DNA from: Basidiobolus meristosporus CBS 931.73
Taxonomy: Eukaryota > Basidiobolomycota > Basidiobolomycetes > Basidiobolales > Basidiobolaceae
DNA length: 64,000 nt
Assembly: GCA_002104905.1 (NCBI GenBank)
Contig: MCFE01000031.1
Location: 154,346 to 218,345 of the forward strand
Direction: 5' to 3'
Position numbers and translations under genes: made by a program. Under the pieces are notes generated by a model. It ran no database searches. It saw only the letters and a list, made by a program, of their open reading frames with translations, and was not told the origin of the DNA. This document shows positions 45,512-64,000 of the stretch, one piece after another (positions within the stretch are counted from its first letter, which is position 1; each line of letters starts with the position of its first letter).

Positions 45512-45753
45512 AGTTGCCATATAACGCCACAGTATACCCCAAAACTCCTGTTTGGTCTTTCATAACTAATAAATACAAGTCCTCGACACTTTTGTTCTTA
45601 ATTTTATGATGGTTTGTCAAGTGGGTGAGCTCATCGTGGTCTGAAGTATTAGAATGATCATATTATTTATGCTATTGCTGGATGATAGTTTAGAAGAAAA
45701 TCCCAGTTTTGGGTTTATGGAAATGTTTATACGAACGTTCGGGAAAATACAAA

Positions 45754-46382: not shown

Positions 46383-47598
46383 GATGCAGAGTGATGGTTG
46401 AGAGAGTAGTAGTGAGAGATGCGCCACTTGTTTGATAGTGTTTGGTGATACTACTTGACATGCTTTATATTGTCAAATCTGAATCCGAATATTCGTGCCC
46501 CGGAGCATTATCCCAATTGACAGGATGTGATCGGATATTACACCTGTATGGGGAAATCGTCAGATAGCATTTGAAATTAATCCCAAAAAATACGTACCAA
46601 TGCGTTTGTCGCCATGTCAACCTATACACCAAATGTACCTGACATCAAGTGACATTGCTGTGTGTGACTACTTCTGAAATGTATATCACATCAGAGTGCG
46701 ACTTGAATCTGGTTAATACAGAGCTCATAATACTCCTTAGGTTGCTGCTTAATGCTGCTATGCGATTTTGCAAATTATGTAATACAATATCATGAAATTA
46801 ATCGCAATTTATCCGAATTCACCCGACATAATCCGTTGGAAAGCTTAGAAATAGAGAAATACTCCGATGGAGGAGCGCTCAAACTCTGAGTGCCTATATA
46901 AAGCATGCCAAGAAGCGTCACCAAACACTATCAAACAAGTGGCGCATCTCTCACTACTACTCTCTCAACCATCACTCTGCATCATGGCTTCCCAAAAGAC
47001 AAAGGTCTTCATCATCATCCACACCGTCTACCATCACATCTACAAACTCGCCCTTGCCATCAAGGAGGGTGTTGAGAAGGTCGACAATGTGGAGGTGTCA
47101 ATCTTCCAGGTGCCCGAGACCCTGTCGCAGGAGATTCTTGACAAGATGCATGCTCCACCCAAGCCCGACATTCCAGTGATCACACCAGAGCTCATGGAGG
47201 AGGCTGATGGCCTCATCTTCGGTATACCCACCAGATACGGAGCCATGCCAGGCCAATGGAGAGCATTCTGGGATGCTACTGGTGCCTTCTGGGCTCGCGG
47301 TGCCTACGCCAAGAAGATGGCCACCTTCTTCTTCTCCACCGCATCCCAACACGGTGGCCAAGAGACCACAGCCTTGACCTCCCTCACCACCCTTACCCAC
47401 CATGGGATCATCTACGTGCCATTGGGCTTCACCTCACCACACCTGAGTGACAACAGCGAGGTGATTGGTGGAAGTGCTTATGGTGCCGGGACCATTGCCA
47501 ATGGAGATGGCTCAAGAATGCCATCCGCCAAGGAATTGGAGGTAGCTGTTCACCAGGGAGAGTACTTCACCAGTATTGTTGCTCAGTATGTTCGTGGT
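45770..47598. repeat. Long inverted repeat: two ~700-bp arms carrying the quinone reductase copies
   Basis: Arm 1 (45770-46470) and arm 2 (46897-47598) are reverse complements over about 701 and 702 bp, the one-base difference being the frameshift. The homology starts just upstream at the TATAAAGCATG region and covers leader and coding sequence to the last four or five codons, where the copies diverge. The spacer is about 426 bp. Confidence 0.9.
46383..46983. promoter_or_regulatory. Shared divergent promoter region of the duplicated quinone reductases
   Basis: Copy 2 has TATATAAA at 46895-46902, about 82 bp before its ATG. Copy 1 has the equivalent TATAAA on the minus strand at 46469-46464, at the same distance. 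Leaders are the same in both (TCACCAAACACTATC...). These are the clearest TATA boxes in the window. The central spacer is unique sequence. Confidence 0.65.
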
Positions 47599-47607
47599 AG
47601 AGAATAA
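46984..47607 (+). CDS. Flavodoxin-fold NAD(P)H:quinone reductase (WrbA/Pst2-like), copy 2, intact
   Basis: Single-exon 207-aa protein. The FMN phosphate loop region is HTVYHHIYKLALAIKEGV, followed by GLIFGIPTRYGAMPGQWRAF and the second FMN loop FFFSTASQHGGQETTAL. The segment THHGIIYVPLGFTSP...GSAYGAGTIANGDGSRMP is typical of the WrbA family (fungal Pst2/Ycp4, plant FQR1). It reduces quinones with NAD(P)H without forming semiquinones. The open frame extends upstream to 46867 but the family start and the paired copy show MASQKTK is the start. Lack of introns and biased codons suggest high or induced expression. Confidence 0.93.
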   Translation: MASQKTKVFIIIHTVYHHIYKLALAIKEGVEKVDNVEVSIFQVPETLSQEILDKMHAPPKPDIPVITPELMEEADGLIFGIPTRYGAMPGQWRAFWDATGAFWARGAYAKKMATFFFSTASQHGGQETTALTSLTTLTHHGIIYVPLGFTSPHLSDNSEVIGGSAYGAGTIANGDGSRMPSAKELEVAVHQGEYFTSIVAQYVRGRE

Positions 47608-47718
47608 GCAACTATTCATGTTACTCCATCTTGTAATTTAAATGCCCTGTGTGACTTAGAGCTCTTGATAATACTTTCTCCATGCAATAAATATACTTTT
47701 CTCGAGTGATCTCCTTTT

Positions 47719-48050
47719 TGTTGTAAAAATTCGGAATTCCACCTAAATATTCACCTAACTTAGTCACTTAGATCTTTACCTTCAAATCCCAGAGAAAACT
47801 GACCAAATTCCTTGTCAGGATTTACTTGGAATATTTACCCAGAACATGAAAATTCTCAAAGTTGTCCAAACAGCCCCAAACTTTGCACACATGTTCTTGG
47901 GACCTTCCTTAACCTATTCTATGTGTTTGTTATGCCAAGACCATGTAAAAGTATAAATACTACTTTTACATTCAATAAATTGCTAAGTGAAAACCACATA
48001 ATCTACTTGTTCTCCCAATCACTTCCAATATCTCCAAGACTCCTACTACA
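47719..48050 (+). repeat. 5' LTR of degenerate copia element A
   Basis: Begins TGTTGTAAAAATT and ends ACTACA. It contains TATAAATA inside AAAAGTATAAATACTACTTTT, the likely promoter. It is 332 bp because it lacks a 16-bp segment (CACCAAAATACCAGGT) present in the LTR at 57291-57638. Confidence 0.85.
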
Positions 48051-50808
48051 GATTATGAGCCCCGAGCTGGCACTATCTGCAATGACTACTACTGCTATTA
48101 CTGGAAGTTTCCCCTCTGCTGAAATTTTGGATGGATCTAACTACCAAGTGTGGAAGGTGAAGATGAAGATGCTGCTACAAGAAAGAGGCCTTTGGGATAT
48201 TGTCTTGGGAGAAGAATGCCCTCCTAAAAATGCGGGAGAGGAAGCCTTAAAGTACCAGAAGAAAGAACAAAGTGCCTTTAACTGCATTTGCCTTAATGTT
48301 AAGGACAAATTACTAATTCAATGCTCAAGAGCAAAAACAGCAAAGAATGCCTGGAAGGCATTAGAAGACACCTACCAGTCATGTTCAGCTACTAAGAGAA
48401 TGTATCTGAAACAAAAATTCTTTACTACAAAGATGCTGCCAGGAGAAGAAATGAAAATCTATTTAACAGAATTACCCCACTGGTAGATGAGATGGAATCT
48501 GTGGGCGTACCAACTACTGATGAGGATGTGATAGTTACCATCCTGAATAGCCTGACAGACAAGTTTCAGGGCCTTGTATCAGCCCTAGAGTCCAGAACTG
48601 AAGATTTGACCTTAACTTACATATATGGAGGCTCCTGGATGAAGAATTAAGAAAATCAAGCGCCAATAAGAAGGAAGAAGAAAATGCTTTAATAAGCAAT
48701 GATAACCAACAAAGGAGGTACCTAAGACCTTACAAAGGCAACAGCAACCTGTTTTGCAACTACTGAAAAAGGAAAGGACACACATTGGATTGGTGCCTCA
48801 AAAAGAGAGATAGTCAGCAGAAAAAGCCTGAGTATGGAAATGCTGCAACAACTGAAGATAGACTACTCATATCAGCACTAAATATGACCACAAACAAGAA
48901 TTCTCAGACATGGTGTATTGACTCTGGAGCATCTCAACATTTTACATACCAAAAAGAACTTTTTACCCAATATCAAGAAATCCCAATTAAGAAGGTATTC
49001 ATGGGTGACAATAGACCACTTAATGCAGTGGGAGAAGGACCTATCCAAGTAAACCTAAGAAGCAGTGAAGGAAGCCATACACTGACCTTTAAAGAAGTAC
49101 TTTATGTACCAGAAATAGCCAAGAACCTACTATCTGTAAGCAAGGCCACAGCAGAAGGACTCTGTTTGAGCTTTGACATTTCTGGATGTAAGATCACTGA
49201 TCAAAATGGTGTCCATATTGCTTCAGGTATCAGAGATCTGAATCTATACAAGCTGACTTATATTCCATCATGTCTGGAAGCCAGTATAAGTAACTTAAAT
49301 GAAGAAATACCAATGCTTTGGCACAGGAGATTTGGGCACATCAATTTTGATTATTTGTGCAAAATGATCAAAGATCAGCTAATTTCCAGAGTAAAAATTG
49401 ATCCCCCAGCTAGTTTGGAGCACTGTGAAGCCTGCATATATGGGAAACAAGCCAGACAGCTGTTCAAGAGCTCTTGATTAATCAAAACTAAGAAAAACTA
49501 GATCTAATTCACTCAGATCTGTGCAGGCCTATGCACAATTTATCCTTAGGTGGAATGAAGTATTTAATCACTTTTATTGATGATTATACAAGATACCTGT
49601 GGGTTTACTTCATGGAGAGAAAGGAAGAAGCTCTGTCTAAGTTCAGGGAGTTCAAAGCCATGGTGGAGAGAGAAACTGGTGAAAAAATCAAGAAAATATG
49701 CTCTGACAATGGTGGAGAATATACCTCAAAACTCTTTATCCACTTCTGCAAAATTCATGGGATAAAGCAAGAGACTACTGTGCCATACTCCCCACAGCAA
49801 AATCAAGTAGTAGAAAGTGATAACAGATCAATAATTAGCATGGCCAGATCTATGATCCATGATCAAGAATTATCCTATGAATTTTGGGTGGAACCAGTTG
49901 CCACAGCTTTACACCTTAAAAATAGGAGTTATAGCGTAATACTTTGTGATACTACTTTATTTGAAGCATGGTATGGATACAGACCAAGTGCAGAACATCT
50001 AAGAATATCTGGGTGTGCAGCATATGCCCTGAAATCAGTCAAAATTTGAGCCAAAAAATGTAAAATGCATATTTTTGGGCTACTGCAATGAGAGTAAAGC
50101 ATACAGACTCTACAATACCAAAGCAAAGAAGCTAATCAAGTCCTGGGATGTGTTGTTTGATCAAGATTCCAAATTTTCACAAAAAATGACATCAGATGAT
50201 GACAAGAATCTGATCCCAAGTCCACCAATTGTCAGGATTGAATCAGAGCAAAACAATGAAGATTTTTTCACTCCAGAGGACTCCACAACCATGGTTCTGC
50301 CAGAATCAGTGCCCAGGAATATCCCAGAAGTGATCATTCCAGTGTCAAATGCCTGGAGATCCAATCAGACAAGAAATAGCCCAAATTACAATATCAATGA
50401 GGGTACAAACTTAGCCTATGCTTATTCAGTCCATATTGATGAGCCTTAGACTGTAAAAGAGGCCCCAAATAGCCCTCAGAAATAGTTTTAGAGATCTGCA
50501 ATGACTGAGGAATATTAGGCCATGATGGAAAATCAAACCTGGGACTTAGTCAATTACCAATCAACCAAAAATCAGTTGGATGCAGATGGGTCTGCAAGAC
50601 AAATACAAGGCTGATGGTACAATTGAAAGTTACAAAGCAAGACTTGTGGCCAAGGGATACTCTCAAACAAAAGGACTTGACTATACCGAGACCTTTGCAC
50701 TGGTAGCCAAGTTTAATTCCATCAGATTGATATTGGCAATTGCAGCCAAATACAAGTTTTTTATACATCAAATGGAAGTAAAAGCTGCATTTTTAAATAG
50801 AGAACCTA
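47719..50808 (+). mobile_element. Ty1/copia retrotransposon copy A, decayed and lacking its 3' part
   Basis: Homologous over its whole length to copy B. Gag is recognisable from 48056 (MSPELALSAM) with a frameshift near 48460. The zinc knuckle has an in-frame stop (about 48764). Protease DSGASQHF, the integrase HRRFGH...CEAC zinc site and SDNGGEYTS are present but separated by stops and frameshifts (about 49478, 50047, 50447). Reverse transcriptase stops at [10 protein letters not shown], where the sequence passes directly into LINE 3' sequence at CCTAGGGGGG. RNase H and the 3' LTR are missing and do not resume to the right. It is non-functional. Confidence 0.9.
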
Positions 50809-51745
50809 GGGGGGAGACAGTCACCAACAGGTGATATCTTTATTTCAGTTGAAACATAGAAGTCAGCACTACTTTTATAGCTTTGATACTGTTGTAAGAG
50901 TCTTGGAGATATTGGAAGTGATTTGGAGAACAAGTAGATTATGTGGTCTTCACTTAATGATTTATTGAATGTAAAAATAATATTTATACTTTTACATGGT
51001 CTTGGCATTACACACATGTAGAATAGGTTAAGGAAGGTCCCAAGAACATGTGTGCAAAGTTTGGGGCTGCTTGGACCACTTTGAGAATTCTCATGTTTTG
51101 GGTACCTGGTATTTTGGTGAAAATATTCTAAGTAAATCCCGATAAGGAATTTGGTCAGTATTCTCTAGGATTTGAAGGTGATGATCTAAGTGACTAAGTT
51201 AGGTGAATATTTAGGTGGAAATACAAACTTTACAACAGATACAAGAGTGTGTGGCTGAGGGGAATATGTAGGTAAGTTAACAAGAAGTGATGATAGTTCT
51301 TCAGTGCTCAAGACACTGTTCAGTGGGAAGGGGGGTAGCAAGAGGGGTAAGAATGATTTGTGAGCAACATTAATGAGGGGAATAAGATAAGGATTGATAT
51401 TTATCATAAAGGGAGTGTGCTGCTTCAGATATTGCTGCCAAAGGTCTGTCAAGTACTTCAGGTAGGCCAGCTTGGGTTTTTCTGACTGCAGAATATAGCA
51501 AACTTCTTGACTTCAGGATTGCCAAGTATAGTTCTCCAGCAGGAGTCAGGTGTAGTGTGGTGTGTTCTCTTCCAGGCCTTGATTAGTGGGTTGTTGCAGT
51601 GGTGAAGTCTGAGATATAATCCAGTTCTAAGGTACAGAAGTCTGATCTTATAGGGCATAAACCCAAAAGCACCAAGAATAGCATGTCTGTAGGGGCATTC
51701 AGGCAGATGAGGCACCAGGGATGTAATGCACCAGACTGCAAACTT
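50809..51745 (-). mobile_element. 5'-truncated LINE, family 1 (reverse transcriptase C-terminal part)
   Basis: Minus-strand LINE whose 3' end abuts the truncated copia A (CCTAGGGGGGAGACAGTCACC on the plus strand). Translated pieces at 51452-51186 and 51715-51458 (MPHLPECPYRHAILGAFGFM) match the post-RT region of the copy at 56129-57290. It is split by a solo LTR at 50890-51237 and damaged by frameshifts. The 5' truncation point is at about 51745, followed by the 42-bp GTTAGGGTGTAGG block. Confidence 0.88.
50890..51237 (-). repeat. Solo copia LTR with 5-bp target site duplication
   Basis: A 348-bp LTR in minus orientation (plus strand TGTTGTAAGAG...TTTACAACA), the same length as the LTR of copia B. 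It is flanked by GATAC on both sides (50885-50889 and 51238-51242). The uninterrupted LINE copy at about 56210 reads GCTTTGATACAAGAG, exactly the empty site. It arose by LTR-LTR recombination after insertion into the LINE. Confidence 0.95.
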
Positions 51746-51787
51746 GTTAGGGTGTAGGTGTTATAGTAAGGGCTAGGAAAAGGTTAG
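51746..51787. repeat. 42-bp TTAGGG-like block, copy 1
   Basis: Identical to 56093-56134 (starts GTTAGGGTGTAGGTG, ends AGGAAAAGGTTAG). In both places it lies at the 5' truncation point of a LINE-type unit. It may be degenerate telomere repeat or a remnant of another element. Confidence 0.8.
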
Positions 51788-53100
51788 AAGAGCAGGGGGT
51801 CTGGAAGAAACAGTCCCCTAGAGCATAAAAAAGCAAGGGGTTTGGGGGATGCAATCCCCCATACTGCTCCCATACTTTTTAAATTCCCTTTGGATTACTT
51901 TTCTCTCATTCTTAGTTCTGGTCCCTTAGGGTTAGAATTCCTCCTCATAACCCTTATCACCCTAACCATAAATATTTTTACCCTTGTTGTATCCAAGAGA
52001 AAGTGTAATAAAACTCTTGAATGATTTAACTGAACCAAAGGGACAATTAAGTGCAGAATCTTAGAATTGTCAGAGAGTGGCGGAAATATTAGCAGAAAGA
52101 TTCTGATCTAATATTGGTCTTGGATATAGCTGGGTTGGCTATAAAGGCAATGATATTTGTTTGCTAGGCAGGCTAGGCTTGGTGTTCTTTGGAGTGCTAG
52201 ATATACTAGGCTTGGATAGAAACTAGAACGGAATTGTTGGATTCTTATTTTTGCTGAGACAGAATCTTAATTTCGTTGAGACACACACTAAACCAAAAGG
52301 TTCAGTAAACTTTATTTATACTTTTCTGATCAAGTTGAATTAGTCAGCGCCAAGGGACTGGATTGATTGAAATCAATTTGGGTGTTCATAGGTGCATAAG
52401 ATAAATGAAAATTACATCATCAATCAACTGATGTCTTGGCAACTGCACAGTGGTTGGATAGATCTCAGATGACTAATCACCTGGGAAGGCTTGGCAGATA
52501 GGTTGATAACGTAATGACCATTTGGAAATAGATCAGGTGTGATAGCTAAAAATAGATTCTGAGGTGGGATAAAATAAACTGTAACTGGGATTTGTTATGT
52601 TTGGGTTAGGGAAAATCAGTTAGGGTACTAGATTTTCAAACGGAGTAAAATTGGCTAAGTTTTAAATGTTGATGCACAACAACCCTACAATTGGCACATT
52701 GTCTGCTCATATAGTGGGCAAGTCTAGGCCAATATTTATCTCCCTGTACTGTCCATATGCTCTGTATAAATCTTAATGACTGTTTAATTAATAAATTGTT
52801 ACTTTTAATGTATATCTAATAATTAATGGGAATCATCCCAAACTGGCCACAATCCCATATTTTGATAAGCTTTGGGCACCATAAATTGCACGGCCCTAAT
52901 ATGATAAAAAATTCATGGCCAATACAAATTTTCTGTAACCCAATTGCTTTTACCAAATATAAAGTGTATCCCAAAGTTCAATATATATTATGGCTATAAT
53001 AGAAACTTTATTTGACACCATTGCAACTACTACTTGTGTTCTATGTGCACATGTATCCTGCAGGAATCGTAAAACTTAGCCACATAGTACAAAAGTGTTT
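51788..53100. other. AT-rich non-coding subtelomeric-like stretch with scattered TTAGGG motifs
   Basis: No gene is supported. TTAGGGTTAG occurs at about 51929-51938 and GGGTTAGGG at about 52611. A GGGGGA...TCCCCC hairpin lies at about 51847-51865. Part of it (52235-52681) may be another solo LTR, listed separately. Confidence 0.5.
52235..52681 (-). repeat. Possible solo LTR of a second copia-like family
   Basis: 447 bp bounded by TGTTG and CAACA. On the minus strand it has GTATAAATAAAG placed like the TATA region of the copia LTRs. Flanks (GGAAT and ACCCT) give no target duplication and no internal region is seen, so this is tentative. Confidence 0.35.
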
Positions 53101-53565
53101 TTATTTTTCATCATGATAGTTTTACATGAGTTCCTAACGCACTTTGGAAGTACACAGTAGCCATACCCCAACAGGTTTTAAGGATGTCCACTAGCTACGT
53201 CTACTTGTGTCTAACAAGAGCCATCAATCATCAGCTGTGTGATACTGAAATGCTTTTATTTTTCATCATACTAGTTTTGTATGAATCCCTAACGCACTTT
53301 CATAGTGCACGGTAACCATACCCCAACAGGTTTTAAGGATACCCACTTGCTATGTTTACTTGTGTCTAGCAGGAGTCATCAATCATCAGCTGTGCGGTAA
53401 TAAAGTGCTTTTATTTTTCATCACAATAGTTTTACATGAGTCCCTAACGCACTTTCATAGTGTGCGGTAACCATACCCCCAGAAAGTAGTGTGGATGCTT
53501 ACTTTAAACGCTCACTTGTGTATTGTAGGGACTATCAACAAACAGCCGTGTGGGAATGGAACATC
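53101..53565. repeat. Three tandem copies of a 155-bp satellite-like repeat
   Basis: TTATTTTTCATCA starts at 53101, 53256 and 53411, exactly 155 bp apart. Conserved segments are CTAACGCACTTT, GTAACCATACCCC, ACTTGTGT and ATCAATCATCAGCTGTG. Copies 1 and 2 are most alike; copy 3 decays in its second half. Confidence 0.92.
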
Positions 53566-54012
53566 ATAGAAAAGTATTGCTTTGTTGTTAGCAAGTATTG
53601 ATGCGCAAATATTGGTACAATGTGAATTATTGAGTAACTATTTACTTTAGTTGGTTCCATGATATTCCTAGACAATATGCTCAAAATCAATATTAGCATC
53701 AATAGCTTGCTCTTTGATCACTAAACCACCGCACCCAATATGTGGTGGTCTTGGTTTTGTCTAGCCATCAAGGAATGAAACCAGAGTACAGTCACAAGAG
53801 AGGCAAAAGTGAAATGTGATGAAGTAAGTGTATATGAAAGTAATATAAATCTACAGGACAGAAGAGAACAACTAGTAGTTGAACAGCACTCACTGACACT
53901 CCACCAAGTAGAGCACCAACACGGACAATAAATAAGCCATGAGGGGAAAGCTTAAGGACCGCTACTTGGGGATCAAGACCAAAAGAGGAAGCTGCCTCTA
54001 CCATAGCAGTCC
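53566..54012. other. Non-coding stretch between the satellite and decayed ORFs
   Basis: AT-rich, with no supported gene. The minus-strand open frame 53792-54184 is a shadow of the plus-strand frame that follows. Confidence 0.4.
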
Positions 54013-54399
54013 TTGTGCTCCAAAGGAAGACCAAGAGTCTACTATAGACAAAGATTGTGGCAAGAAGAGCAGTACAATTACCAGTCTGGTAGTGGTACCT
54101 TTGGAAGTCCCAAATACCTGGAGAAAACTTGGAAAAAATTGGCAGATGACTCAGTTGCCCTGAGGAGAAAACAAACCAATGCAATTGAGCAGTTCCAAAA
54201 TGAACTTCAGCTTAGTTCTTCTTTGCCTCACTATAAAGTACTCCAAGTGGCTTATTTGGATTATAAGCGTATGAAGGAGAATCAGGCAGAGACTGATAAA
54301 TTAAGTGATAGTCAATTGCATCACTTCTTAGATCAGGTAGAGAAACAGTTGCACAGCCAAGAGACGGAACAAGAATTGACAATTACAGAAACTAAATAA
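54013..54399 (+). pseudogene. ORF fragment of unidentified mobile element (128 aa, coiled-coil-like)
   Basis: Open frame with helical, charged sequence (KYLEKTWKKLADDSVALRRK, HHFLDQVEKQLHSQETEQEL). I do not recognise a family. It lies among retroelement debris with similar base composition, so it is more likely a remnant of a transposon protein than a host gene. The open frame starts without a clear promoter. Confidence 0.35.
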
Positions 54400-54630
54400 T
54401 TTTGCCAATGTAGTTTTGCATATTAATAAAATAAAAGGGTGTTAATAAGAACAGAATAAAGTTAACTATGTGTACATCAAATGATTCAAATACTGGCTAG
54501 ATGGATGTTACATAGGAGCAAGAAGCTCAGTAACCTCAAAGGAAAGATATGATAAATGGGCCACCAACATCATCCAAATGAGTATAAAAGTGGAGAAAGT
54601 AGACATAATCCTTCATAAAAAACAAGAAGC

Positions 54631-55068
54631 ATGGAAGCAGGCAGTAGCCAGGTAGATGCCAGGAGTGAAGGTAGAGTACAAAGAGAGCAAGGAAGGGGAC
54701 AAGGATGTGGAAGAGGACGCAGAACTGGGCGCAAAAGAGGAAGAGGGCAAGGAAGTGGCCAAATCCAAGAGGAGTGTGAAGGAGGTGTTGCAGCAAATGT
54801 GAATGATGCTGAGCAAGTTGCTGTTGTCACTACCAGGCAGCCGGTTAACCAAGTTTCCCAAGCATTATCAAAGGTTTGACAAGAGCTTCTGGAATATAGG
54901 ACAACATTGCACCATGAGATATTGCAACATATGTGCCAGGAGATTAAGCAGAGGAGGGGTGATATTGTAAAGCTAAATCAGGATATTGCTGGACTTCAAG
55001 CCCAGATTGATTTCAGTTTCCACCATTCTACTGAGGCATTAGTGGCACAAATGGTGGAAAAGTTTGCC
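54631..55068 (+). pseudogene. Decayed ORF with Arg/Gly-rich N-terminus, one in-frame stop, cut off by a LINE tail
   Basis: From the ATG at 54631 the frame encodes an RG-rich basic region (GRGQGCGRGRRTGRKRGRG). A TGA stop follows at 54878-54880, after which the same frame continues (QELLEYRTTLHHEILQHMCQ...DIVKLNQDIAGLQAQ) until it runs into TTAGGGTTAGGG at 55069. The family is unknown; an RNA-binding Gag-like or transposase N-terminus is possible. Confidence 0.4.
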
Positions 55069-55107
55069 TTAGGGTTAGGGGGGAGACAGTCACCAACAGG
55101 TGAGATC
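55069..55107 (-). mobile_element. Minimal LINE family-1 3' tail between TTAGGG units
   Basis: TTAGGGTTAGGG (55069-55080), then GGGAGACAGTCACC, loop, GGTGAGATC, then TTAGGGTTAGGG again at 55108. Only about 27 bp of a family-1 3' end is present, i.e. an extreme 5' truncation bounded on both sides by telomere-type repeats. Confidence 0.8.
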
Positions 55108-55363
55108 TTAGGGTTAGGGGGGAGGGAAAGTCACCAAGTTGGTGAAATCTTTATTTGAGTTAAGAACTAATCTAAGTACAAATAGAGAAGCCAATTTAGA
55201 GGTCTAGAATCTCTCTAATAAGTAATCTAATTTATGTTTTGTTTCATCTCTAATGTTTGTTTCAATAGAGTAAAGCTCATCAGGGGTAAATATAAAATTC
55301 AGGAGTTTTGGGGGAAGTACAAATTGTAGATGTTTCTGATCAATATAATCCAAGACTGGAACC
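55108..55363 (-). mobile_element. 5'-truncated LINE family-2 3' UTR fragment
   Basis: TTAGGGTTAGGGGGG followed by AGGGAAAGTCACC...GGTGAAATCTTTATTTG and about 220 bp nearly identical to the 3' end of the RT element at 60741-61000, up to GACTGGAACC. There the next TTAGGGTTAGGG begins. It includes the last codons of the RT ORF frame only. Confidence 0.85.
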
Positions 55364-56092
55364 TTAGGGTTAGGGGGGGGATGATAATCACCACAGGGTG
55401 AAATCTTTATTTAAATCATAAATAAAGAAGCCAAATTTGAATAAGAATAGTTGAGATGCAGAAAGCCTACAAGATAAACTTGGACTTTGCTGTATCCCAA
55501 ATATCCTCAATATTGAAGTCTAGAGGAGAATGTAGCAAAACTGCTTGTTCACTGTAGTATTTCTTGAGGAAGTTTGTGACTTGAAGGTAAGGAGAGTTTT
55601 TCAACAAGCTGGTAAACCTTTTGAGGAGTTCTTTCTCCAGAGAGAATGGTACAAAGAGTGGAATGTCCAAATGATGTCTGAATATATGCTCTGAGAGCTC
55701 CCAATCCAGCATATTTTTGACTTCTTCTGTAAAATCTTCAACAATATCTTTGTCAAGAATAACTTCCAAGAGATCCCTGGCAATGTACTGAATGTTAATA
55801 ATCTTAGGCATATGAATACCTAGGACCTTGAGGTAATTTTGTTGTTCTGAAATTGGGAGATAGCCAGCATTTCTGAAATAGCAAACAGCCCAATTGGCAG
55901 TGGGAGGAGTATCAGGGCTGACAGGGAATCTTCTTCTAGCTTTAGGGTGCACTGGCTTAGGTGACTGTCTTGTTGAAAGGGCAGCTGGCTTTGGATGAGC
56001 TTGAAGTGCTTGGGAGTATGTCAGAGTATGAATGGCAGGAGTTGCTGGTTGCTGACAGTGGTCAGATTGACTGGAAGAAGAGCTGGTTGAGG
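55364..56092 (-). mobile_element. LINE-like unit ending in an ORF1 (Gag-like) frame, family 3
   Basis: Starts at TTAGGGTTAGGGGGGGG (3' end of the element), with the stem-loop ATCACC...GGTGAAATCTTTATTT. A minus-strand ORF runs from the 5' truncation point (about 56090) to the stop at 55467. Its conserved part (NWAVCYFRNAGYLPISEQQN, LLEVILDKDIVEDF, LLHSPLDFNIEDIWDTA) matches the ORF1 at 62952-63677. The 3' tail follows directly after the ORF1 stop; no RT frame lies between. ORF1 proteins of LINEs bind element RNA. Confidence 0.8.
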
Positions 56093-56134
56093 GTTAGGGT
56101 GTAGGTGTTATAGTAAGGGCTAGGAAAAGGTTAG
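56093..56134. repeat. 42-bp TTAGGG-like block, copy 2
   Basis: Identical to 51746-51787. Here it separates the 5' end of the ORF1-type unit from the 3' end of the next LINE (TTAGGGGGGAGACAGTCACC). Confidence 0.8.
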
Positions 56135-57290
56135 GGGGGAGACAGTCACCAACAGGTGAAATCTTTATTTCAGTTGAAACAAAGAAGCCAGTACTACTGT
56201 TGTAGCTTTGATACAAGAGTGTGTAGCTGAGGGGAATTAGTAGGTAAGTTAATAAGAAGTGATGATAGTTCTTCAGTGCTCAAGACACTGTTCAGTGGGA
56301 AGGGGGGTAGCAAGAGAGGTAAGAATGACTTGTGAACAACATTAATGAGGGGAATGTGATAAGGGTTGACATTCATCATAAAGGGAGTGTGCTGCTGCAG
56401 ATATTGCTGCCAAAGGTCTGTCAAGTACTTCAGGTGGGCCAGCTTGGGTTTTTCGGACTGCAGAATAAATTCAGCAAACTTCTTGACTTCAGGATCTCCA
56501 AGTATAGTTCTCCAGCAGGAGCCAGGTGTAGTGTGGTGTGTTCTCTTCCAGGCCTTAATCAGTGGGTTGTTGCAGTTGTGAAGTCTGAGGTATAATCTGG
56601 TTCCAAGGTAGAGAAGTCTGATCTTATAGGGCATAAACCCAAAAGCACCAAGAATAGCATGTCTGTAGGGGCATTCAGGCAAATGAGGCACCAAGGAGGT
56701 AATGCACCATACTGCAAACTTGTCAAGCTTAGTGCAGTCTCTAGAAGTAAGAGAGAGAAGTGGTAAGCCAAATTCCAGGACAGGGAAGACAAACGGCTTG
56801 AGTAGAAGAAGGCAGCTGGGAGCTGAAGTTGTAGGAGGAGTAACAGCCAGTAGCTTGTGGAGTGCCTGTCTTGCCAGGATAATTCTCTTCTTCAGGTGTG
56901 CTCCAGAGTCTAGTCCAGTAGAAAGGAAAGGAAAGCCAAGATATGTAGAAGAAACCTGAGCAGGTAGAGTGGAGTTCTCCAAGTTGATGGGAGAGCCCAA
57001 AGGAACTGTCTTTGCAATGGAAAGCTGGAGATTATTCTTCTGCAGATACTGGTGGATGGTCTGGGAGTCTTGTTGCACATTGGAGGAGGATATTCTGATG
57101 TCATCAGCAAAGAGAGTAACCAGGCAGTCAGCTGAGAGTCTTGGGAAATCATTCAGGAAGATGGCAAACAGTATAGGACCAAGCACAGAGCCTTAAACCA
57201 CTCCATTAGGAACTGAGAACACAGCTGATTGCTCACTTGGGTGCAGAATTCTTGCTTGTGGATCCAGAAACAGAGACCTGACAAGGAGGG
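56131..57290 (-). mobile_element. 5'-truncated LINE family 1 with reverse transcriptase ORF
   Basis: 3' end TTAGGGGGGAGACAGTCACC...GGTGAAATCTTTATTTC. The RT frame ends at 56194. Visible are motif B (VVxGSVLGPILFAIF, its Gln codon now TAA at 57195-57193), motif C LFADDIRISS, QLSIAKT and YLGFPFL. A long C-terminal domain ends in a Leu-rich region (FLPLLLPPFPLNSVLS). Upstream the frame continues to 57290 (SVPNGVV), where copia B is inserted. The premature stop and truncation make it inactive. Confidence 0.9.
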
Positions 57291-57638
57291 TGTTGTAAAA
57301 ATTTGTAATTCCACCTAAATATTCACCTAACTTAGTCACTTAGATCATTTCCCTCAAATTCTAGAGAATACTGACCAAATTCCTTGTCGGGATTTACTTA
57401 GAATATTTTCACCAAAATACCAGGTACCCAGAACATGAAAATTCTCAAAGTTGTCCAAACAGCCCCAAACTTGCACACATGTTCTTGGGACCTTCCTTAA
57501 CCTATTCTACGTGTTTGTTATGCCAAGACCATGTAAAAGTATAAATACTACTTTTACATTCAATAAATCATTAAGTGAAAACCACATAATCTACTTGTTC
57601 TCCCAATCACTTCCAATATCTCCAAGACTCTTACAACA
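57291..57638 (+). repeat. 5' LTR of copia element B
   Basis: 348 bp from TGTTGTAAAAATTTG to CTTACAACA, with TATAAATA at about 57540. The left flank is LINE sequence ending GAGGG. The right LTR is absent because the element is cut off at about 60744. Confidence 0.9.
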
Positions 57639-57656
57639 GGTTATGAGCCCCGAGCT
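57639..57656 (+). promoter_or_regulatory. Primer binding site for a half-molecule of initiator tRNA-Met
   Basis: Directly after the LTR comes GGTTATGAGCCCCGAGCT. Its complement contains GGGCTCATAACC, the anticodon stem-loop of fungal initiator tRNA-Met including anticodon CAT. Drosophila copia uses the same kind of internal cleaved-tRNA primer (its PBS is of the GGTTATGGGCCC type). The ATG of this PBS is also the likely Gag start codon. Confidence 0.7.
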
Positions 57657-60600
57657 GTCACTCTCTGCAATGTCTACTACTGCTATTACTGGAATTTTTC
57701 CCTCTGCTGGAAAGTTGGATGGATCCAACTACCAAGTGTGGAAGGTGAAGATGAAGATGCTGTTGCAAGAAAGAGGCCTTTGGGATATTGTCATGGGAGA
57801 AGAATGCCCTCCTAAAAACGTGGGAGAGGAAGCCTTAAAGTACCAGAAGAAAGAACAAAGTGCCTTTAACTGCATTTGCCTTAATGTCAAGGACAAATTG
57901 CTAATTCAATGCTCAAGAGCAAAAACGGCAAAGAATGCCTGGAAAGCATTAGAAGACACCTACCAGTCATGTTCAGCTGCCAAGAAAATGTATCTGAGAA
58001 GAAAATTCTTTACTACAAAGATGCTGCCAGGAGAAGAAATGAAAAATCTAATTATCAGAATTACCCTGCTGGTAGATGAGATGGAATCGGTGGGCGTACC
58101 AACTACTGATGAGGATGTGATAGTTACCATCCTGAATAGCCTGACAGACAAGTTTCAGGGCCTTGTATCAGCCCTAGAGTCCAGAACTGAAGATTTGACC
58201 TTAAATTATGTATATGGAAGGCTCCTGGATGAAGAATTAAGCAAATCAAGCGCCAATAAGAAGGAAGAAGAAAATGCTTTAATAAGCAATGATAACCAAC
58301 AAAGGAGGTACCCAAGACCCTACAAAGGCAACAGCAACCTATTTTGCAACTACTGCAAAAGGAAAGGACACACATCAGACCGGTGTTTCAAAAAGAGAGA
58401 TTATCAGCAAAAGAAGCCTGAATATGGAAATGCTGCAACAACTGAAGATAGACTATTCATATCTGCACTAAATATGACCACAAACAAGGATTCTCAGACG
58501 TGGTATATTGACTCTGGAGCTTCTCAACACTTTACACACCAAAAAGAACTTTTTACCCAATATCAAGAAATTCCAATTAAGAAGGTTTTCATGGGTGACA
58601 ATAGAACACTTGATGCAGTGGGAGAAGGAACTATCCAAGTAAACCTTAGAAGCAGTGAAGGAAGCCATACACTGACCTTTAAAGAAGTACTCTATGTACC
58701 AGAAATAGCCAAGAACCTACTCTCTGTAAGCAAGGCCACAGCAGAAGGACTCAGTTTCAGTTTTGACAATTCTGGATGCAGGATCACTGATCAAAATGGT
58801 GCCCATATTGCTTCGAGCATCAGAGATCAGAATCTATACAAGTTGACTTATATTCCATCATATCTGGAAGCCAATATAAGTAACTTAAATGAAGAAACAC
58901 CAATGCTTTGGCACAGGAGATTTGGACACATCAATTTTGATTATTTGCGTAAAATGATCAAAGATCAGCTAATTTCTGGAGTGAAAATTGATCCCCCAGC
59001 TAATTTGGAGCACTGTGAAGCCTGCATATATGGGAAACAAGCCAGACAACCGTTCAAGAGCTCTGGGTTAATCAAAACTAAGAAAAAATTAGATCTAATT
59101 CACTCAGATCTGTGTGGACCTATACAAAATTTATCCTTAGGCGGGATGAAGTATTTAATCACTTTTATTGATGATTATACAAGATACACATGGGTCTACT
59201 TCATGGAGAGAAAGGAAGAAGCTCTGTCTAAGCTCAGGGAGTTTAAAGCCATGGTGGAGAGAGAAACTGGTGAAAAAATCAAGAAAATACGCTCTGACAA
59301 TGGAGGAGAATATACCTCAAAACTTTTCATTCACTTCTGCAAAATTCATGGGATAAAGCAAGAGACTACTGTACCATACTCCCCACAGCAAAATGGAGTA
59401 GCAGAACAAGCTAACAGATCAATAATTGATATGGCAAGATCTATGATCCATGATCAAAAATTATCCTATGATTTTTGGGCGGAATCAGTTGCCACTGCTG
59501 TATATCTTAAAAATAGGAGTTATAACAGAATACTTCGTGATTCTACTCCATTTGAAGCATGGTATGGATACAGACCAAGTGCAGAACATCTAAGAATATT
59601 TGGGTGTACAGCATATGCCAAAAAACTGGCCGGAAATCAGTCAAAATTTGAGCCAAAAAGTGTAAAATGCATATTTTTGGGCTACTGCAATGAGAGTAAG
59701 GCATACAGACTCTACAATACCGAAGCAAAGAAGCTGATCAAGTCCAGGGATGTGTTGTTTGATGAAAATTCAAAATTTTCACAAAAAATGACATCAGATG
59801 ATGACAAAAATTTGATCTCAAGTCCACCAATTGTCAGGATTGAATCAGAGCAAAACAATGAAAATTTTTTCACTCCAGAGGACTCTACAACCGTGGTTCA
59901 GCCAGAATCAGTGCCCAGGAATATCCCAGAAGTGATCATTCCAGTATCAAATGCCCGGAGATCAAATCGGACAAGAAATAGCCCAAATTACTATATTAAT
60001 GAGGGTACAAACTTAGCCTATGCCTATTCAGTCCATATTGATGAACCCCAGACTGTAAAAGAGGCCCTAAATAGCCCTCAGACGAAGTTTTGGAGATCTG
60101 CAATGACTGAGGAATATCAGGCCCTGATGGAAAATCAAACTTGGGACTTAGTCAAATTACCAATCAACCGAAAATCAATTGGATGCAGATGGGTCTTCAA
60201 GACAAAGTACAAGGCTGATGGTACAATTGAAAGATACAAAGCAAGACTTGTAGCCAAAGGATACTCTCAAACAAAAGGACTTGACTATACTGAGACCTTT
60301 GCACCGGTAGCCAAGTTTAATTCCATCAGATTAATATTGGCTATTGCAGCCAAATATAAGTTTTTTATTCATCAAATGGATGTAAAAACTGCATTTTTGA
60401 ATGGAGAACTTGCTGAGGACGTGTATATGGACCAGCCTGATGGGTTTGTTGACCAAGATAACCCCCATTTGGTCTGCAAGCTTAAAAAGTCACTATATGG
60501 TCTCAAACAATCACCAAGAGCCTGGAATTGCAAGATAGATTCTTATTTGGAATCTTTGAGTTTCAAAAGGAGTAATGCTGACTATAGTATATACTATAAG

Positions 60601-60771
60601 CCAGATAGAGCCAATCCAGTTCTATTAGCTCTATATGTGGATGATCTTATTATAGCCACCAATAACCTAGAAACATTGGAAGAAACTAAATCCAGCCTAT
60701 CTAAGGAGTTCAAGATGTCCAATCTAGGAGAACTTAGTTACTTAGGGGAGGGAAAGTCACCAAGTTGGTGA
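57643..60771 (+). pseudogene. Copia element B Gag-Pol polyprotein, intact to reverse transcriptase, then truncated
   Basis: Open for more than 1,040 codons. Gag comes first (KLDGSNYQVWKVKMKMLLQE), with zinc knuckle CNYCKRKGHTSDRC and protease DSGASQHFTH. Integrase follows with HRRFGH...CEACIYGKQ, FIDDYTRYTW, SDNGGEYTS and NGVAEQANR. Then reverse transcriptase has [34 protein letters not shown] and LYVDDLIIATN. It ends abnormally at LGELSYLGEG, where LINE 3' sequence begins, so the end of RT, all of RNase H and the 3' LTR are missing. The frame is also open back through the LTR to 57451, but the Met at 57643, aligned with copy A, is the likely start. Young but incomplete. Confidence 0.92.
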
Positions 60772-62812
60772 AATCTTTATTTGAGTTAAGAACTAATCTA
60801 GGTACAAATAAAGAAGCCAATTAAGAGGTCTAGAACCTCTCTAATAAATAATCTAATTTATGTTTTGTTTCATCTCTAATGTTTGTTTCAATAAAGTAAA
60901 GCTCATCAGGGGTAAATATAAAATTCAGGGGTTTTGGGGGAAGTACAAATTGTAGATGTTTCTGATCAATATAATCCAAGACTGGAACCCAGCCTGGGAT
61001 TAGGTGTAGTAGGAAAGGTGTGTGGACTTGTAAGTAGCTCTGCCACATAGATCTTAGATGGTCCTGAGCCAGTAGTCTTGGTTTCTCAGCTTTTTGAAGT
61101 TTTGAAGCAAGCTCTGTTACTACAGCAGAGCCAACCAGGGTGTGCCAGCAAGAAGATTTCAGGGAGGAGTTAGATTGAAGCCATTGTTTGATGGAGGGGT
61201 TATGTGATTTCTGAAGTTTGACTAGGAAGGAAGCACGGAGATAGACCATTTGGATTTGGTATGGGTAGAAGCCAAAGGCTCCATTAGTTGCATGGATATA
61301 GGGAGATACTGGAAGATAAGGTACCAAGGATCTGATACACTGATGGAGAAATTTATCCAGGCGGTGAAGTTCTCTGGAGGTTAGGGGTATAATGTGGAGA
61401 CCAAACTCAAGTACCGGCAGTACATACTGCTTCAGAAGTATAGGGATCTTTTGAAATGGAGTGTCTGGAGTGACTACTACCAGAAGCTTTTTGAGAGCCT
61501 GTTGAGCAAGACGGATCCTATTATTCAGGTGGAGCTTTGAGTCAATCCCATGTTGACAAAATGGCAGACCTAGATATATTGCAGTTTGTTGTGGCAGAAT
61601 GGTAGTGTTCTGTATAGTTGTAGTGCATCCAATTGGGACTGTCTTGGAAATTGAGAGTGAGAGGTTGTTGGCAGCCAAGTACTTCTCAATGATGGCAGTG
61701 TCTGCTATGGGATTAGGAGTAGCAATCTTGATATCATCCGCATAGAGAGTTAGTAGTGGATAGGGAGAGTCTGGTGAGGGGCCTTTTGGAAATAAAGGAA
61801 AGTCATGTAGGAATATCACAAATAGTAAGGGACCTAGTACAGATCCTTGGACTACTCCATTTGGAACCTCATAAGTCTCTGATGTACAACTTGGATGCAA
61901 AATTTTGGCTGAGTTCTCACAAAATAGAGAACGTACAAGAAGGGTCATTGGTAGTGTGGTAACTGCTAATAGCTTTCTCCAAAGCAGAGCTCTGTCCACA
62001 GAGTCAAAGGCTTTAGTAATGTCAAACAGAATGGTTGGCAATGAGAATTGAAGTGAATGATCATGGCTTAGCACTACAGCCATATCCAAGGAGAGTTTGG
62101 GCAAGAAGCCAAACTGAGAAGGATGGAATGGATATAGTTGAGATTGCAAGGATCTTGCAATTATAAGCTCAAAGATTTTCCGGCAGGTTGGCAGGAGTGA
62201 AACTGGCCGGTAAGAACCTGGGAGTGAGTGTTTCCCCTTCCCTTTGTATAAGGGTATTACATTTGCCTGTGACCAGGCCTTTGGGGTAGTCAATTGTTGG
62301 GCACAGATAGAGTAGAATGGGAGAAGTAAGTGACTCATTTTGGAGTAGCACACCCGGAGTAGATCGCAGGTAATCAAGTCATGTCCAGGTGCAGTATTTG
62401 CAGGAAGCTTCTTTAAAATTTTCTCCAGAAGCTTTGCTGAAGCCAAAATTGGAGATGTTGGACTGCTAGATATGTTACCAGTATGGTAGAAAGGAGGAGT
62501 GGGATGCACGGTTGAATCAAAGAATATAGGGGCCAGTTTGTCTGGTGATGGTATACTCCTTGCTTGGGGTCTCATGGCTTTATATACTCTTGATATGGAC
62601 CTTGTGGTGGCATTCATATTTACTAAGGGCAAGGTATCCATGATATGAGCCCATAATCTAGTATGCTCAGTGATCTGTAGTGACTTGGAGTAGGAGATTG
62701 CGCTTTCCAGGAGGTTCTGTGTTTTTGGGTTAGGGAAACATAGGTAGCTGGAATTTAAGGCAGAAATGATGGATTTCCATTTAAGTTGGTTTGCAGATGG
62801 CTTTTGGTAGGA
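60741..62812 (-). mobile_element. 5'-truncated LINE family 2 with long reverse transcriptase ORF
   Basis: 3' end CTTAGGGGAGGGAAAGTCACCAAGTTGGTGAAATC joined to copia B; 5' end at about 62812, followed by CTTAGGGGTTAGGGG and the tail of the next unit. It holds the RT region without a visible endonuclease; the linker before RT (NQLKWKSIISALNSSYLCFP) is where the element is cut. The 3' UTR shares blocks ACAAATAAAGAAGCCA and AAATCTTTATTT with the ORF1-type units. Confidence 0.9.
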
Positions 62813-62842
62813 CTTAGGGGTTAGGGGAGGGAAAGTCACCAA
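60830..62842 (-). CDS. LINE reverse transcriptase ORF (670 aa), N-terminus supplied by the upstream element's tail
   Basis: Uninterrupted 670-codon frame. RT motifs in order: VIPLYKGKGKHSLPGSYRPV, the motif A region LFDITKAFDSVDR, motif B VVQGSVLGPLLFVIF, motif C TLYADDIKIAT, LSLSISKTVPIG and YLGLPF. A C-terminal helical region ends LDYLLERF. No apurinic endonuclease or RNase H is visible. The first residues MVTFPPLTPK are encoded by the stem-loop and CCCCTAACCCC tail of the neighbouring unit, i.e. the frame crosses an element junction. The intact RT core suggests recent activity, but the N-terminus is artificial and the native protein was longer. Confidence 0.88.
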   Translation of the reverse strand: MVTFPPLTPKSYQKPSANQLKWKSIISALNSSYLCFPNPKTQNLLESAISYSKSLQITEHTRLWAHIMDTLPLVNMNATTRSISRVYKAMRPQARSIPSPDKLAPIFFDSTVHPTPPFYHTGNISSSPTSPILASAKLLEKILKKLPANTAPGHDLITCDLLRVCYSKMSHLLLPFYSICAQQLTTPKAWSQANVIPLYKGKGKHSLPGSYRPVSLLPTCRKIFELIIARSLQSQLYPFHPSQFGFLPKLSLDMAVVLSHDHSLQFSLPTILFDITKAFDSVDRALLWRKLLAVTTLPMTLLVRSLFCENSAKILHPSCTSETYEVPNGVVQGSVLGPLLFVIFLHDFPLFPKGPSPDSPYPLLTLYADDIKIATPNPIADTAIIEKYLAANNLSLSISKTVPIGCTTTIQNTTILPQQTAIYLGLPFCQHGIDSKLHLNNRIRLAQQALKKLLVVVTPDTPFQKIPILLKQYVLPVLEFGLHIIPLTSRELHRLDKFLHQCIRSLVPYLPVSPYIHATNGAFGFYPYQIQMVYLRASFLVKLQKSHNPSIKQWLQSNSSLKSSCWHTLVGSAVVTELASKLQKAEKPRLLAQDHLRSMWQSYLQVHTPFLLHLIPGWVPVLDYIDQKHLQFVLPPKPLNFIFTPDELYFIETNIRDETKHKLDYLLERF

Positions 62843-63653
62843 GGTAGGTGAAATCTTTATTTGATTTCAGACAAGTCTAACTACAAATAAAGAAGCCAGT
62901 TGGGAATAGAAGATTCCCAAAGTATAAACACTAAGTTGAATATGAATAAATCTAAGCTAAAGTTAAGGCAGTATCCCAGAGTACACTGGAGTTCAGGTTC
63001 ATGGGGGAGTGAAGTAGATAAGCTTGAGAGATATAATAATCTTTGAGGAAGTGGGTAACAGCAGGTGAAGGGGAGTTTTTGATAAGTAAAGTGAATCTTG
63101 AGAGCAGAGATTCCTCTAAGGAGAAGGTCTTGTAAACCGGAGAATCAGGAAACTCTTTAAAGGCATGGTCAGTAGGTTCCCAGTAAAGCTGGTCAGAGAC
63201 ATTTTGAGAGAACTCTTTAGCAATACTTTTGTCAAGTACTACCTCCAGAGTATGATGGTTGATAAATCTCATGTTAACAATCTTGGATAAGTTGTAACCT
63301 TGTTGCTTGAGATACATCCTATGCTCAGATATAGGAATAAACTCCACATTGGCAAAGTAGCAGACAGCCCAGTCAGTAGCAGGAGGCAAATTGGAAGTGG
63401 CAGGAAACTTTCTTTTAGTCTTGGGAGGAGCAGCAGGATGTCTTGAGGAAGCAGGAACAGGCTTTTTGACAGCTTCAGAGTAGGAAGAGTGAGCAGGAGC
63501 AAATGATTCTTGGGGAGTCTTGTTGACAGGAAGAGCTGGCACAGGGACAATAGATTCTTGCAGATCAGAAAAGGCAGAAAACAGCTTTTGAACTTGTTTC
63601 TTGAGTAAAGCATTTTCAGCTTCAACAAGTGCAAGCCTTTCCTCAAGGAAGGA
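62813..63653 (-). mobile_element. ORF1-only LINE-like unit, family 2 tail
   Basis: 3' end CTTAGGGGTTAGGGGAGGGAAAGTCACCAAGGTAGGTGAAATC. The tail resembles that of the RT element at 60741 (shared stem-loop, AAATCTTTATTTGA, ACAAATAAAGAAGCCA). It is followed immediately by the ORF1 stop, with no RT frame. The 5' end at about 63653 meets GGTTAGGGG of the next copy. Confidence 0.85.
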
Positions 63654-63677
63654 GGTTAGGGGAGGGAAAGTCACCAA
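62952..63677 (-). CDS. LINE ORF1 (Gag-like) protein, 241 aa, N-terminus supplied by the upstream unit's tail
   Basis: Starts MVTFPPLT from the neighbouring unit's stem-loop and CCCCTAACC tail. Then a coiled coil (FLEERLALVEAENALLKKQV), a Pro/Ala linker and a folded domain: ATDWAVCYFANVEFIPISEH, LSKIVNMRFINHHTLEVVLD, LYWEPTDHAF, LLHSPMNLNSSVLWDTALT. This resembles the RNA-binding C-terminal part of LINE ORF1 proteins, and matches the frame at 55467-56090. No zinc knuckle is visible in this part. Confidence 0.8.
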   Translation of the reverse strand: MVTFPPLTSFLEERLALVEAENALLKKQVQKLFSAFSDLQESIVPVPALPVNKTPQESFAPAHSSYSEAVKKPVPASSRHPAAPPKTKRKFPATSNLPPATDWAVCYFANVEFIPISEHRMYLKQQGYNLSKIVNMRFINHHTLEVVLDKSIAKEFSQNVSDQLYWEPTDHAFKEFPDSPVYKTFSLEESLLSRFTLLIKNSPSPAVTHFLKDYYISQAYLLHSPMNLNSSVLWDTALTLA

Positions 63678-64000
63678 AGTAGGTGAAATCTTTATTTGAT
63701 TTCAGACAAGTATAACTACAAATAAAGAAGCCAGCTGGGAATAGAAGATTCCCAAAGTAAACACTAAGTTGAATATGAATAAATCTAAGCTAAAGTTAAG
63801 GCAGTATCCCAGAGTACACTGGAGTTCAGGTTCATAGGGGAGTGAAGTAGATAAGCTTGAGAGATATAATAATCTTTGAGGAAGTGGGTAACAGCAGGTG
63901 AAGGGGAGTTTTTGATAAGTGAAGTGAATCTTGAGAGCAGAGATTCCTCTAATGAGAAGGTCTTGTAAACTGGAGAATCAGGAAACTCTTTGAAGGCATG
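63654..64000 (-). mobile_element. Second tandem copy of the ORF1-only unit, cut by the window edge
   Basis: Over about 340 bp it is almost identical to 62817-63165 (stem-loop, 3' UTR and C-terminal ORF1 codons), in the same orientation, directly head-to-tail with the previous unit. It continues past the window. Confidence 0.88.

Follow-up and report, generated by a model that had tools for sequence, protein, structure and literature searches.

Telomere-associated LINEs have been described in two ascomycete fungi, namely MoTeR1/MoTeR2 of Magnaporthe oryzae and FoTeR of Fusarium oxysporum, all of which group with Cnl1, SLACS and CRE. The first-pass annotation of the DNA studied here knew of no fungal LINE family with its layout, but MoTeR and FoTeR, as described in PMC7367193 and PMC12857005, have the same head-to-tail, 5'-outward arrangement with TTAGGG between elements. 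These sources also describe 5' truncation and telomere formation on truncated ends; PMC7367193 presents MoTeR2 as an RT-less partner in which an unrelated stretch replaces the RT, and PMC12857005 describes tandem repeats (VNTRs) upstream in FoTeR. The Basidiobolus elements share with these systems head-to-tail arrays, outward 5' ends, intervening (TTAGGG)n, 5' truncation, an RT-less partner and upstream tandem repeats. They differ in their enzyme. MoTeR and FoTeR carry a C-terminal restriction-like endonuclease (RLE), whereas Basidiobolus families A and B have an N-terminal APE-type endonuclease, and no CCHC/RLE motif was found (4/4 ORF2 proteins scanned lack both CCHC and R(K/P/A)D). Furthermore, ORF1 remains open in the RT-less Basidiobolus partners, families C and E, a SINE-like member is also present, and the host is a Basidiobolus rather than an ascomycete.

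HeT-A of Drosophila has an oligo(A) 3' end, a feature that is absent from the Basidiobolus elements. HeT-A, TART and TAHRE comprise RT-coding and ORF1(Gag)-only elements, for which the endonuclease is held to be dispensable for end addition, in a host described as having neither telomerase nor canonical repeats (PMC4700185). Basidiobolus resembles this system in combining RT-coding and ORF1-only elements that probably add at the chromosome end, here with putative mobilization in trans, but unlike Drosophila it has a TERT-like gene and TTAGGG caps. SART1 of Bombyx is reported to have a poly(A) tail and to need at least three TTAGG units (PMC7265360). In contrast to TRAS/SART (R1 clade), poly(A) is almost absent from Basidiobolus junctions, and the extra telomere sequence there mostly falls short of one unit. 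Penelope-like elements encode a Penelope-type RT, with a GIY-YIG endonuclease or none, and families A and B do not belong with them because they combine an APE endonuclease with a LINE-type RT. Zepp (Chlorella), GilM/GilT (Giardia), Tx1-1_ACar (Anolis) and the Athena Penelope-like elements of rotifers are also described as telomere-associated retroelements adjoining telomeric repeats (PMC10088271), and we liken them to the Basidiobolus elements by description only.

We analyzed a window of 64,000 nucleotides from Basidiobolus meristosporus, together with the whole 89-Mb assembly (1311 contigs). The right-hand part of the window had been read as an array of one LINE. Instead, it contains pieces of families A, B, C and E together with Copia DNA (two copies and one solo LTR), and in the genome the array is a consortium of at least five related families (A–E) in one orientation with ends joined through TTAGGG. 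At the left, a 5'-truncated family A 3' piece with ~600 bp of element (50807..51747, minus strand) is split by the solo Copia LTR (50890-51237), which is flanked by a ~5-bp repeat of element sequence, and its 3' end is joined to a broken Copia copy. Two perfect TTAGGG units (55069..55080, plus strand) precede a family A 3' end of only ~30 bp (55078..55107, minus), no copy in the window being shorter. Two more perfect units (55108..55119, plus) precede a family B 3' piece of ~246 bp (55118..55363, minus), and a third such pair (55364..55375, plus) leads into a 5'-truncated copy of the ORF1-only family E (55375..56095, minus), in which frame P0003 (55467-56093) covers the C-terminal portion of this family's ORF1-like protein.

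TTAGGG units and 30-40 bp of further telomere-adjacent repeat (TGTAGGTGTTATAGTAAGGGCTAGGAAAAGG) follow at 56088..56133 (plus), the last letters being GGTTAGGGGGG. The adjoining family A 3' piece carries a C-terminal RT frame, P0002 (56131..57292, minus), and a Copia LTR retrotransposon (57290..60742, plus) is inserted in this A copy. The next LINE junction truncates the locus, which therefore lacks the distal part of this Copia and the remainder of the A copy. The Copia element, which the B junction at 60745 cuts off, accounts for the large plus-strand frame at 57439-60771. The B 3' piece (60745..62815, minus) contains RT frame P0001 (60830-62866; RVT_1, E 8e-21), whose first ~14 residues derive from the adjoining next element. 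Beyond junction TTAGGGGTTAGGGG (62813..62823, plus) lies a 5'-truncated copy of the ORF1-only family C (62821..63653, minus), with its ORF1-like protein in frame P0004 (62952-63701), and finally a second C 3' end that runs off the contig (63656..64000, minus). A search for an allelic empty site with window positions 44500-48400 gave only repeats and the same contig.

All eight LINE-type 3' junctions proposed by the first-pass annotation are present, at or within a few bases of their reported positions (50808, 55078, 55118, 55375, 56131, 60745, 62821 and 63656), and all face the same way. The claim that TTAGGG precedes each of them holds at seven of the eight; the junction at 50808 has only CTAGGG. 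Likewise, the two telomere units proposed at four sites are perfect at 55069, 55108 and 55364, and the fourth site, at 62813, reads TTAGGGGTTAGGGG. With one mismatch or fewer allowed, the window contains 10 matches to (TTAGGG)2, where shuffles predict 0.23; seven of these matches fall within 50805..64000, of which one is minus-strand and another (62724) lies within the B element. The A-type 3' end GGGGGGAGACAGTCACC occurs seven times at three mismatches or fewer (0.11 expected), and the eighth junction, at 55375, has an E-type end. Among junctions parsed across the genome, at least TTA stands to the left of the G-run in 44/59 and 74/83, compared with 2.3% in shuffled sequence. Chance occurrence of TTAGGG at junctions is rejected on these counts, both in the window and in the parsed junctions. 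The chromosome end had been placed to the right, which fits because the window stops exactly at the right end of the contig (218,345 bp), but the contig has no telomere cap.

A 3' hairpin is common to families A–E, as is a C-rich end abutting TTAGGG, and most copies are 5'-truncated. Single-strand folding predicted the hairpin at all five family 3' ends, and its CACC/GGTG stem letters are nearly invariant between families. The LINE families A and B have two ORFs each and encode both an APE-type endonuclease and a reverse transcriptase. RVT_1 was found in ORF2 of both, and Exo_endo_phos_2 scored at cut-off in the relative P0010 and below cut-off in A and one B copy. An AlphaFold2 model of B ORF2 matched the RT of L1 ORF2p/R2 and the endonuclease of TRAS1/R1Bm, a fold match that does not place the clade; the RT has 89 homologues, almost all of them unnamed. 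The endonuclease motifs N, GDxN and SDH are retained, and a conserved Glu is Asp in 3/3 covered members of the clade but Glu in 20/20 other aligned LINEs. Among the matches listed, a 949-aa frame is open in 14/66 B places and a 922-aa frame in 34/121 A places. These open frames are 94-99% alike, and crude omega values for element frames are 0.25-0.45.

Families C and E have the 3' end common to A and B and code for an ORF1-like protein alone, with a predicted coiled coil and probably an RRM-like fold. Foldseek with the ORF1 fold returned nothing at or below E 0.001; VIA gave middling matches, largely to RRM, and Pfam gave weak matches only, mostly of coiled-coil type. The family C protein has 146 matching places, most of them stop-free across the matched part, with a crude omega of 0.45 and a 50% homologue in B. 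ranarum. Family D is a SINE-like element of ~540 bp without a long frame. A B box, GGTTCAAATCC, was present in 9/9 D copies viewed and an A-box-like TAGCCTTGTGG in 7/9, which we take to be tRNA-like from the A/B box consensus; ARAGORN and Rfam searches for a tRNA or other known RNA in D gave nothing usable. A further LINE, H, with RVT_1 in two frames, follows GGGTTAGGG at four places.

Clustering of copies at contig ends, which the first-pass annotation suggested checking, was borne out in the assembly. On contigs >50 kb of known length, with subterminal defined as <20 kb from an end, 45/45 sampled B-type junctions are subterminal and face the near end (median distance 4.1 kb, maximum 17.4 kb), and nearly all coding copies are subterminal with the 5' side outward (A 68/70, B 27/27, C 30/31). 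Mapping of the 3' hairpin gave 129/166 exact B-like copies with TTAGG within 14 nt. The first-pass annotation would have been refuted by a majority of internal copies at non-TTAGGG sites with poly(A) tails and target duplications, but the genome shows the contrary pattern; only 4/147 junctions have at least four consecutive Ts (poly(A) in sense) within 22 nt at the 3' end. A (TTAGGG)n array of ~160-240 bp terminates 17/35 contig ends examined, or 13/31 without four ends that were picked by telomere. At 16 of the 17 capped ends, an A, C or D element lies with its 5' side outward no more than 26 nt before the array, and on contig C1 ~40 unmatched bp separate a short telomere tract from the long cap. 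The presence of caps after truncated or complete elements supports the earlier suggestion of re-capping and repeated cycles. A TERT-like gene is present, with two Telomerase_RBD pieces above cut-off, and no long frame was seen in this 3-kb locus; a genome search with (TTAGGG)5 gave 6978 forward and 73 reverse matches.

We consider it probable that the window region forms the terminal zone of a small Basidiobolus chromosome, made by repeated telomere-directed retrotransposon addition through end priming. A chromosome end would first lose nearly all of its telomere, and the remaining G-strand 3' OH (a partial or single TTAGGG) would pair with an element RNA at its 3' end (...CCCCUAA), the RNA being bound by ORF2p via the 3' hairpin. 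The paired end would then serve as primer for reverse transcription toward the chromosome end, for which a nick would hardly be needed, if at all, and telomerase would re-cap the new end. Later erosion would trim from the 5' side, telomerase would leave a short seed, and the cycle would repeat, with C, D and E using A/B ORF2p in trans. Several features of the junctions are consistent with this scheme. Interrupted elements resume past the addition in 0/52 informative cases (from 86 junctions, 62 with known flanks), whereas the interrupted element does continue on the other side at four further interruptions in these loci. The outer copy is nearer to the reference in 27 pairs and less near in 6 (p=1.6e-4, with pairs that are not independent), and on this measure outer copies appear younger. 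At most junctions the extra telomere sequence amounts to less than one unit, and additions thus seem to be made on ends with almost no telomere. The subterminal placement with outward 5' sides, the caps, the many distinct breakpoints, the open ORF2 frames, the TERT-like gene and the Glu-to-Asp change in the endonuclease likewise speak for this scheme. We infer that priming was by the TTAGGG 3' end, that is, end-primed reverse transcription at eroded ends.

ORF2p could instead nick a standing (TTAGGG)n array and insert by target-primed reverse transcription, in the manner of TRAS/SART or MoTeR, with the proximal tract shrinking later. This alternative, which we regard as unlikely, draws on the APE-type endonuclease with its retained motifs and its fold match to that of TRAS1, and on MoTeR, for which PMC7367193 describes tracts that likewise vary (from half a unit to >20) and interstitial tracts that break easily within arrays. 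Hits at random sites in an array should, however, leave long proximal tracts, and the observed tracts are short: caps measure ~160-240 bp, yet the telomere sequence left of the G-run reaches 12 nt in just 11/142 parsed junctions (3/59 and 8/83). Many breakpoints lie within LINE or Copia DNA with only TTAGGGG, and the Glu-to-Asp change at a conserved endonuclease position also argues against nicking.

Subtelomeres generally recombine. Arrays might grow mainly through recombination or break-induced replication between ends rather than by new retrotransposition, as described for MoTeR arrays (PMC7367193). We consider this very improbable in Basidiobolus, where 146 distinct junctions fall at 139 distinct breakpoints and element order differs between loci; the only recurrent breakpoints are the 5' end of full-length D (7) and one repeat piece (2). 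Array duplication as the main route is disfavored by these unique breakpoints. Least credible of all is that these are ordinary LINEs at chance or hotspot TTAGGG targets whose terminal position merely reflects assembly breaks in repetitive DNA. Repeats do lie at contig ends, and 18/35 ends are seen uncapped, but such an artifact is rejected as the sole cause because element direction is fixed, while Copia pieces in the arrays face both ways, and caps follow the elements, with TTAGGG at nearly all junctions.

A broader possibility is more tentative. In a fungus that has telomerase and many very small chromosomes, a HeT-A/TART-like division of labor between RT-coding LINEs with an endonuclease altered at a conserved, catalytic-type position, ORF1-only partners and a SINE-like passenger may provide a permanent reserve for repairing eroded ends by direct end-primed reverse transcription, after which telomerase completes the cap, and its origin may be independent of the CRE-clade fungal elements and of those of insects. 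If so, telomere-directed LINEs arose at least twice in fungi by differing enzyme types, and the fly scheme of RT carrier and ORF1-only partner coexists with telomerase repeats. Because a single genome preserves well over 100 junctions, the succession of erosion, re-capping and addition would be directly readable, and the choice between retrotransposition and telomerase in end healing thus becomes testable in one organism. This may bear on end maintenance in a fungus with very many small chromosomes.

G-quadruplex motifs are few in the elements, and GGG runs favor the telomere G strand in B (57 vs 12), A (62 vs 9) and C (26 vs 5), while the first 48 kb of the window has 377 vs 357 by strand.

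We found that all eight 3' junctions that the first-pass annotation had placed at window positions 50805 to 64000 are real and lie in a single orientation. The accompanying claim of TTAGGG at every junction held for seven but not for 50808, where only CTAGGG is found. Because contig C547 totals 218,345 bp, the right edge of the window (G000:C547:154346-218345) is the contig end. Histidyl-tRNA synthetase lies at the left end; its top-scoring relatives besides itself are two long vertebrate-labelled entries (55% identity), and the next are early-diverging fungi (~67-71%). All genome-wide counts come from a single assembly (G000; 89,006,234 bases in 1311 contigs) with many uncapped ends, and PMC7466969 names PacBio as the sequencing platform used for B. 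meristosporus CBS 931.73.

Five element families (A-E) have in common a TCACC-loop-GGTGA hairpin near the 3' end, with a short C-rich terminus after it. Two are LINEs with an APE-type endonuclease: family B (~4.6 kb), with an ORF1 of 497 aa and an ORF2 of 949 aa, and family A (~4.5 kb), with an ORF2 of 922 aa and an ORF1 frame directly upstream. Family C (~1.5 kb or more) encodes a single 242-aa ORF1-like protein, family E (~1 kb) is ORF1-like only, and the SINE-like family D (~540 bp) lacks a 120-aa frame in its L019 and L022 copies. The ORF1 proteins of A, B, C and E can be aligned in their C-terminal domain, and the sole database relative of family C ORF1 at an E-value of 0.01 or better is a Basidiobolus ranarum "hypothetical protein" (50% identity over 60% of the query). 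The head-to-tail, 5'-outward arrangement of the arrays is closely like that of MoTeR from Magnaporthe oryzae and FoTeR from Fusarium oxysporum, so the statement that no described fungal LINE family shares it was too strong; the enzyme class, however, differs. Among the entries listed in searches of the open-access literature, with most subscription papers outside, no title or abstract opening dealt with Basidiobolus telomeric retrotransposons or with a fungal telomeric LINE of the APE type, which does not prove their absence. At its 5' end, family C carries tandem copies of a 101-bp unit (5.5 and 9 of them in two loci). This repeat can adjoin the telomere cap directly (L010:6713-7623, L012:4554-5106) and resembles the variable repeats that lie upstream in FoTeR. 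A further LINE, H, is preceded by GGGTTAGGG at four places.

A hairpin pattern with up to three mismatches matched the whole assembly 210 times forward and 32 times in reverse, and the reversed pattern, used as a control, gave 0 matches. For place and direction we took 60 of the 100 listed hairpin places, 45 of which are on contigs longer than 50 kb. In all 45 the 5' side faces the near end, at a median distance of 4083 bp and a maximum of 17,408 bp. The 15 places on short contigs were excluded, four of them with the 3' side nearer an end. Coding copies were counted on contigs >50 kb of known size, comprising 70 of 121 listed places for A, 27 of 66 for B and 31 of 146 for C (total copies at least 121, 66 and 146). 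Among these listed places, 68/70, 27/27 and 30/31, respectively, point 5'-outward within 20 kb of an end; the exceptions are on contigs C558 (one A and one C place) and C726 (one A place). The 218-kb C558 carries pieces of D, E, A and C in an array away from its ends (L113; G000:C558:94500-99500), which could reflect contig chimerism, a past fusion of ends or a truly internal location. Across the assembly, (TTAGGG)5 has 6978 forward-strand versus 73 reverse-strand matches; nearly all contigs are apparently written telomere-right, probably through a habit of the assembly program.

(TTAGGG)n forms the terminus of 17 of the 35 contig ends examined, including four (C1, C2, C21 and C22) chosen for their telomere. 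In sixteen of these cases an element of family A, C or D, 5' side outward, comes before the cap, with at most 26 nt between its matched part and the array; at the remaining capped end, on C524, no family matched before the array. On C1, a short TTAGGG tract sits on the element, and ~40 bp without a match lie between this tract and the long cap. The constant 5' end of family D joined to TTAGG occurs without mismatch 164 times in the genome, 158 times on the forward and 6 times on the reverse strand.

At the 3' side, TTAGG lies within 1-14 nt of 129 of 166 exact B-like hairpins. Two junction samples (61 and 86, of which 59 and 83 were parsed) had at least A before the G-run in 58/59 and 82/83 cases, at least TTA in 44/59 and 74/83, six or more telomere nucleotides in 15/59 and 41/83, and twelve or more in 3/59 and 8/83. 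TTA precedes 2.3% of G-runs in mono-shuffled sequence and 17.8% in the unshuffled loci, junctions themselves included. Because the tracts before the G-run are short, the usual junction telomere does not exceed what an RNA ending in CCCCUAA could supply.

We asked whether interrupted elements resume to the right of a junction. Among 86 junctions in long loci, 62 have a known element as left flank, and 52 of these are informative, with at least 60 bp of the interrupted element remaining. None of the 52 resumes, with a median of 4.2 kb of sequence visible to the right (≥1 kb in 45/52). Four other interruptions do resume, among them a solo Copia LTR in the window. Also in the window, the next B junction truncates a Copia that had inserted into A, and beyond this junction neither that Copia nor that A copy reappears. 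In 27 of the 33 same-family pairs the outer copy resembles the reference more than the inner one does (p = 1.6e-4, with non-independent pairs). This closeness, which serves as the measure of age, has a positive trend in 12 of 14 loci; references were single copies rather than consensus sequences. The 146 distinct junctions fall at 139 breakpoints, with recurrence confined to the 5' end of family D and a single piece of repeat. We infer that the elements join by addition at chromosome ends, not by insertion.

Two other repeats occur in these arrays. One, starting with TGTAGGTGTTATAGTAAGGGCTAGGAAAAGGTTAG, directly follows TTAGGG (window 51748-51985 and 56096-56128, and the terminal stretch of L017); in two loci it is broken at its own internal GGTTAG, as if this had served as a seed. 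The other, of ~697 bp, is found in both orientations in family H and elsewhere (L010:3266-3962, window 51985-52681 and other loci); it is an ordinary mobile element, usable as an orientation control.

Substitutions in the element frames are mostly at third codon positions. Rough omega estimates, with copies treated as independent, are 0.18 for B ORF1 (3 HSPs), 0.35 for B ORF2 (18), 0.25 for A ORF2 (24), 0.45 for C ORF1 (9) and 0.45 for E (3; codon-position test not significant, p = 0.08). Changes that create stop codons show no depletion in either C or A. Because a B-like ORF2 relative (P0010, 64%) and an A-like one (P0011, 44% to B) occur on short contigs from other public data, both lineages may predate this genome.

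Five contigs have outward-facing element arrays near both ends and therefore look like near-complete chromosomes of ~150-310 kb: C424 (312,558 bp), C979 (267,059 bp), C591 (205,623 bp; left end uncapped), C735 (196,824 bp) and C370 (153,305 bp). Of the ends examined on C735, C979 and C370, only the right end of C370 is capped. These sizes fit microscopy of Basidiobolus, in which small chromosomes were counted in numbers from 60 up to many hundreds (PMC3281927).
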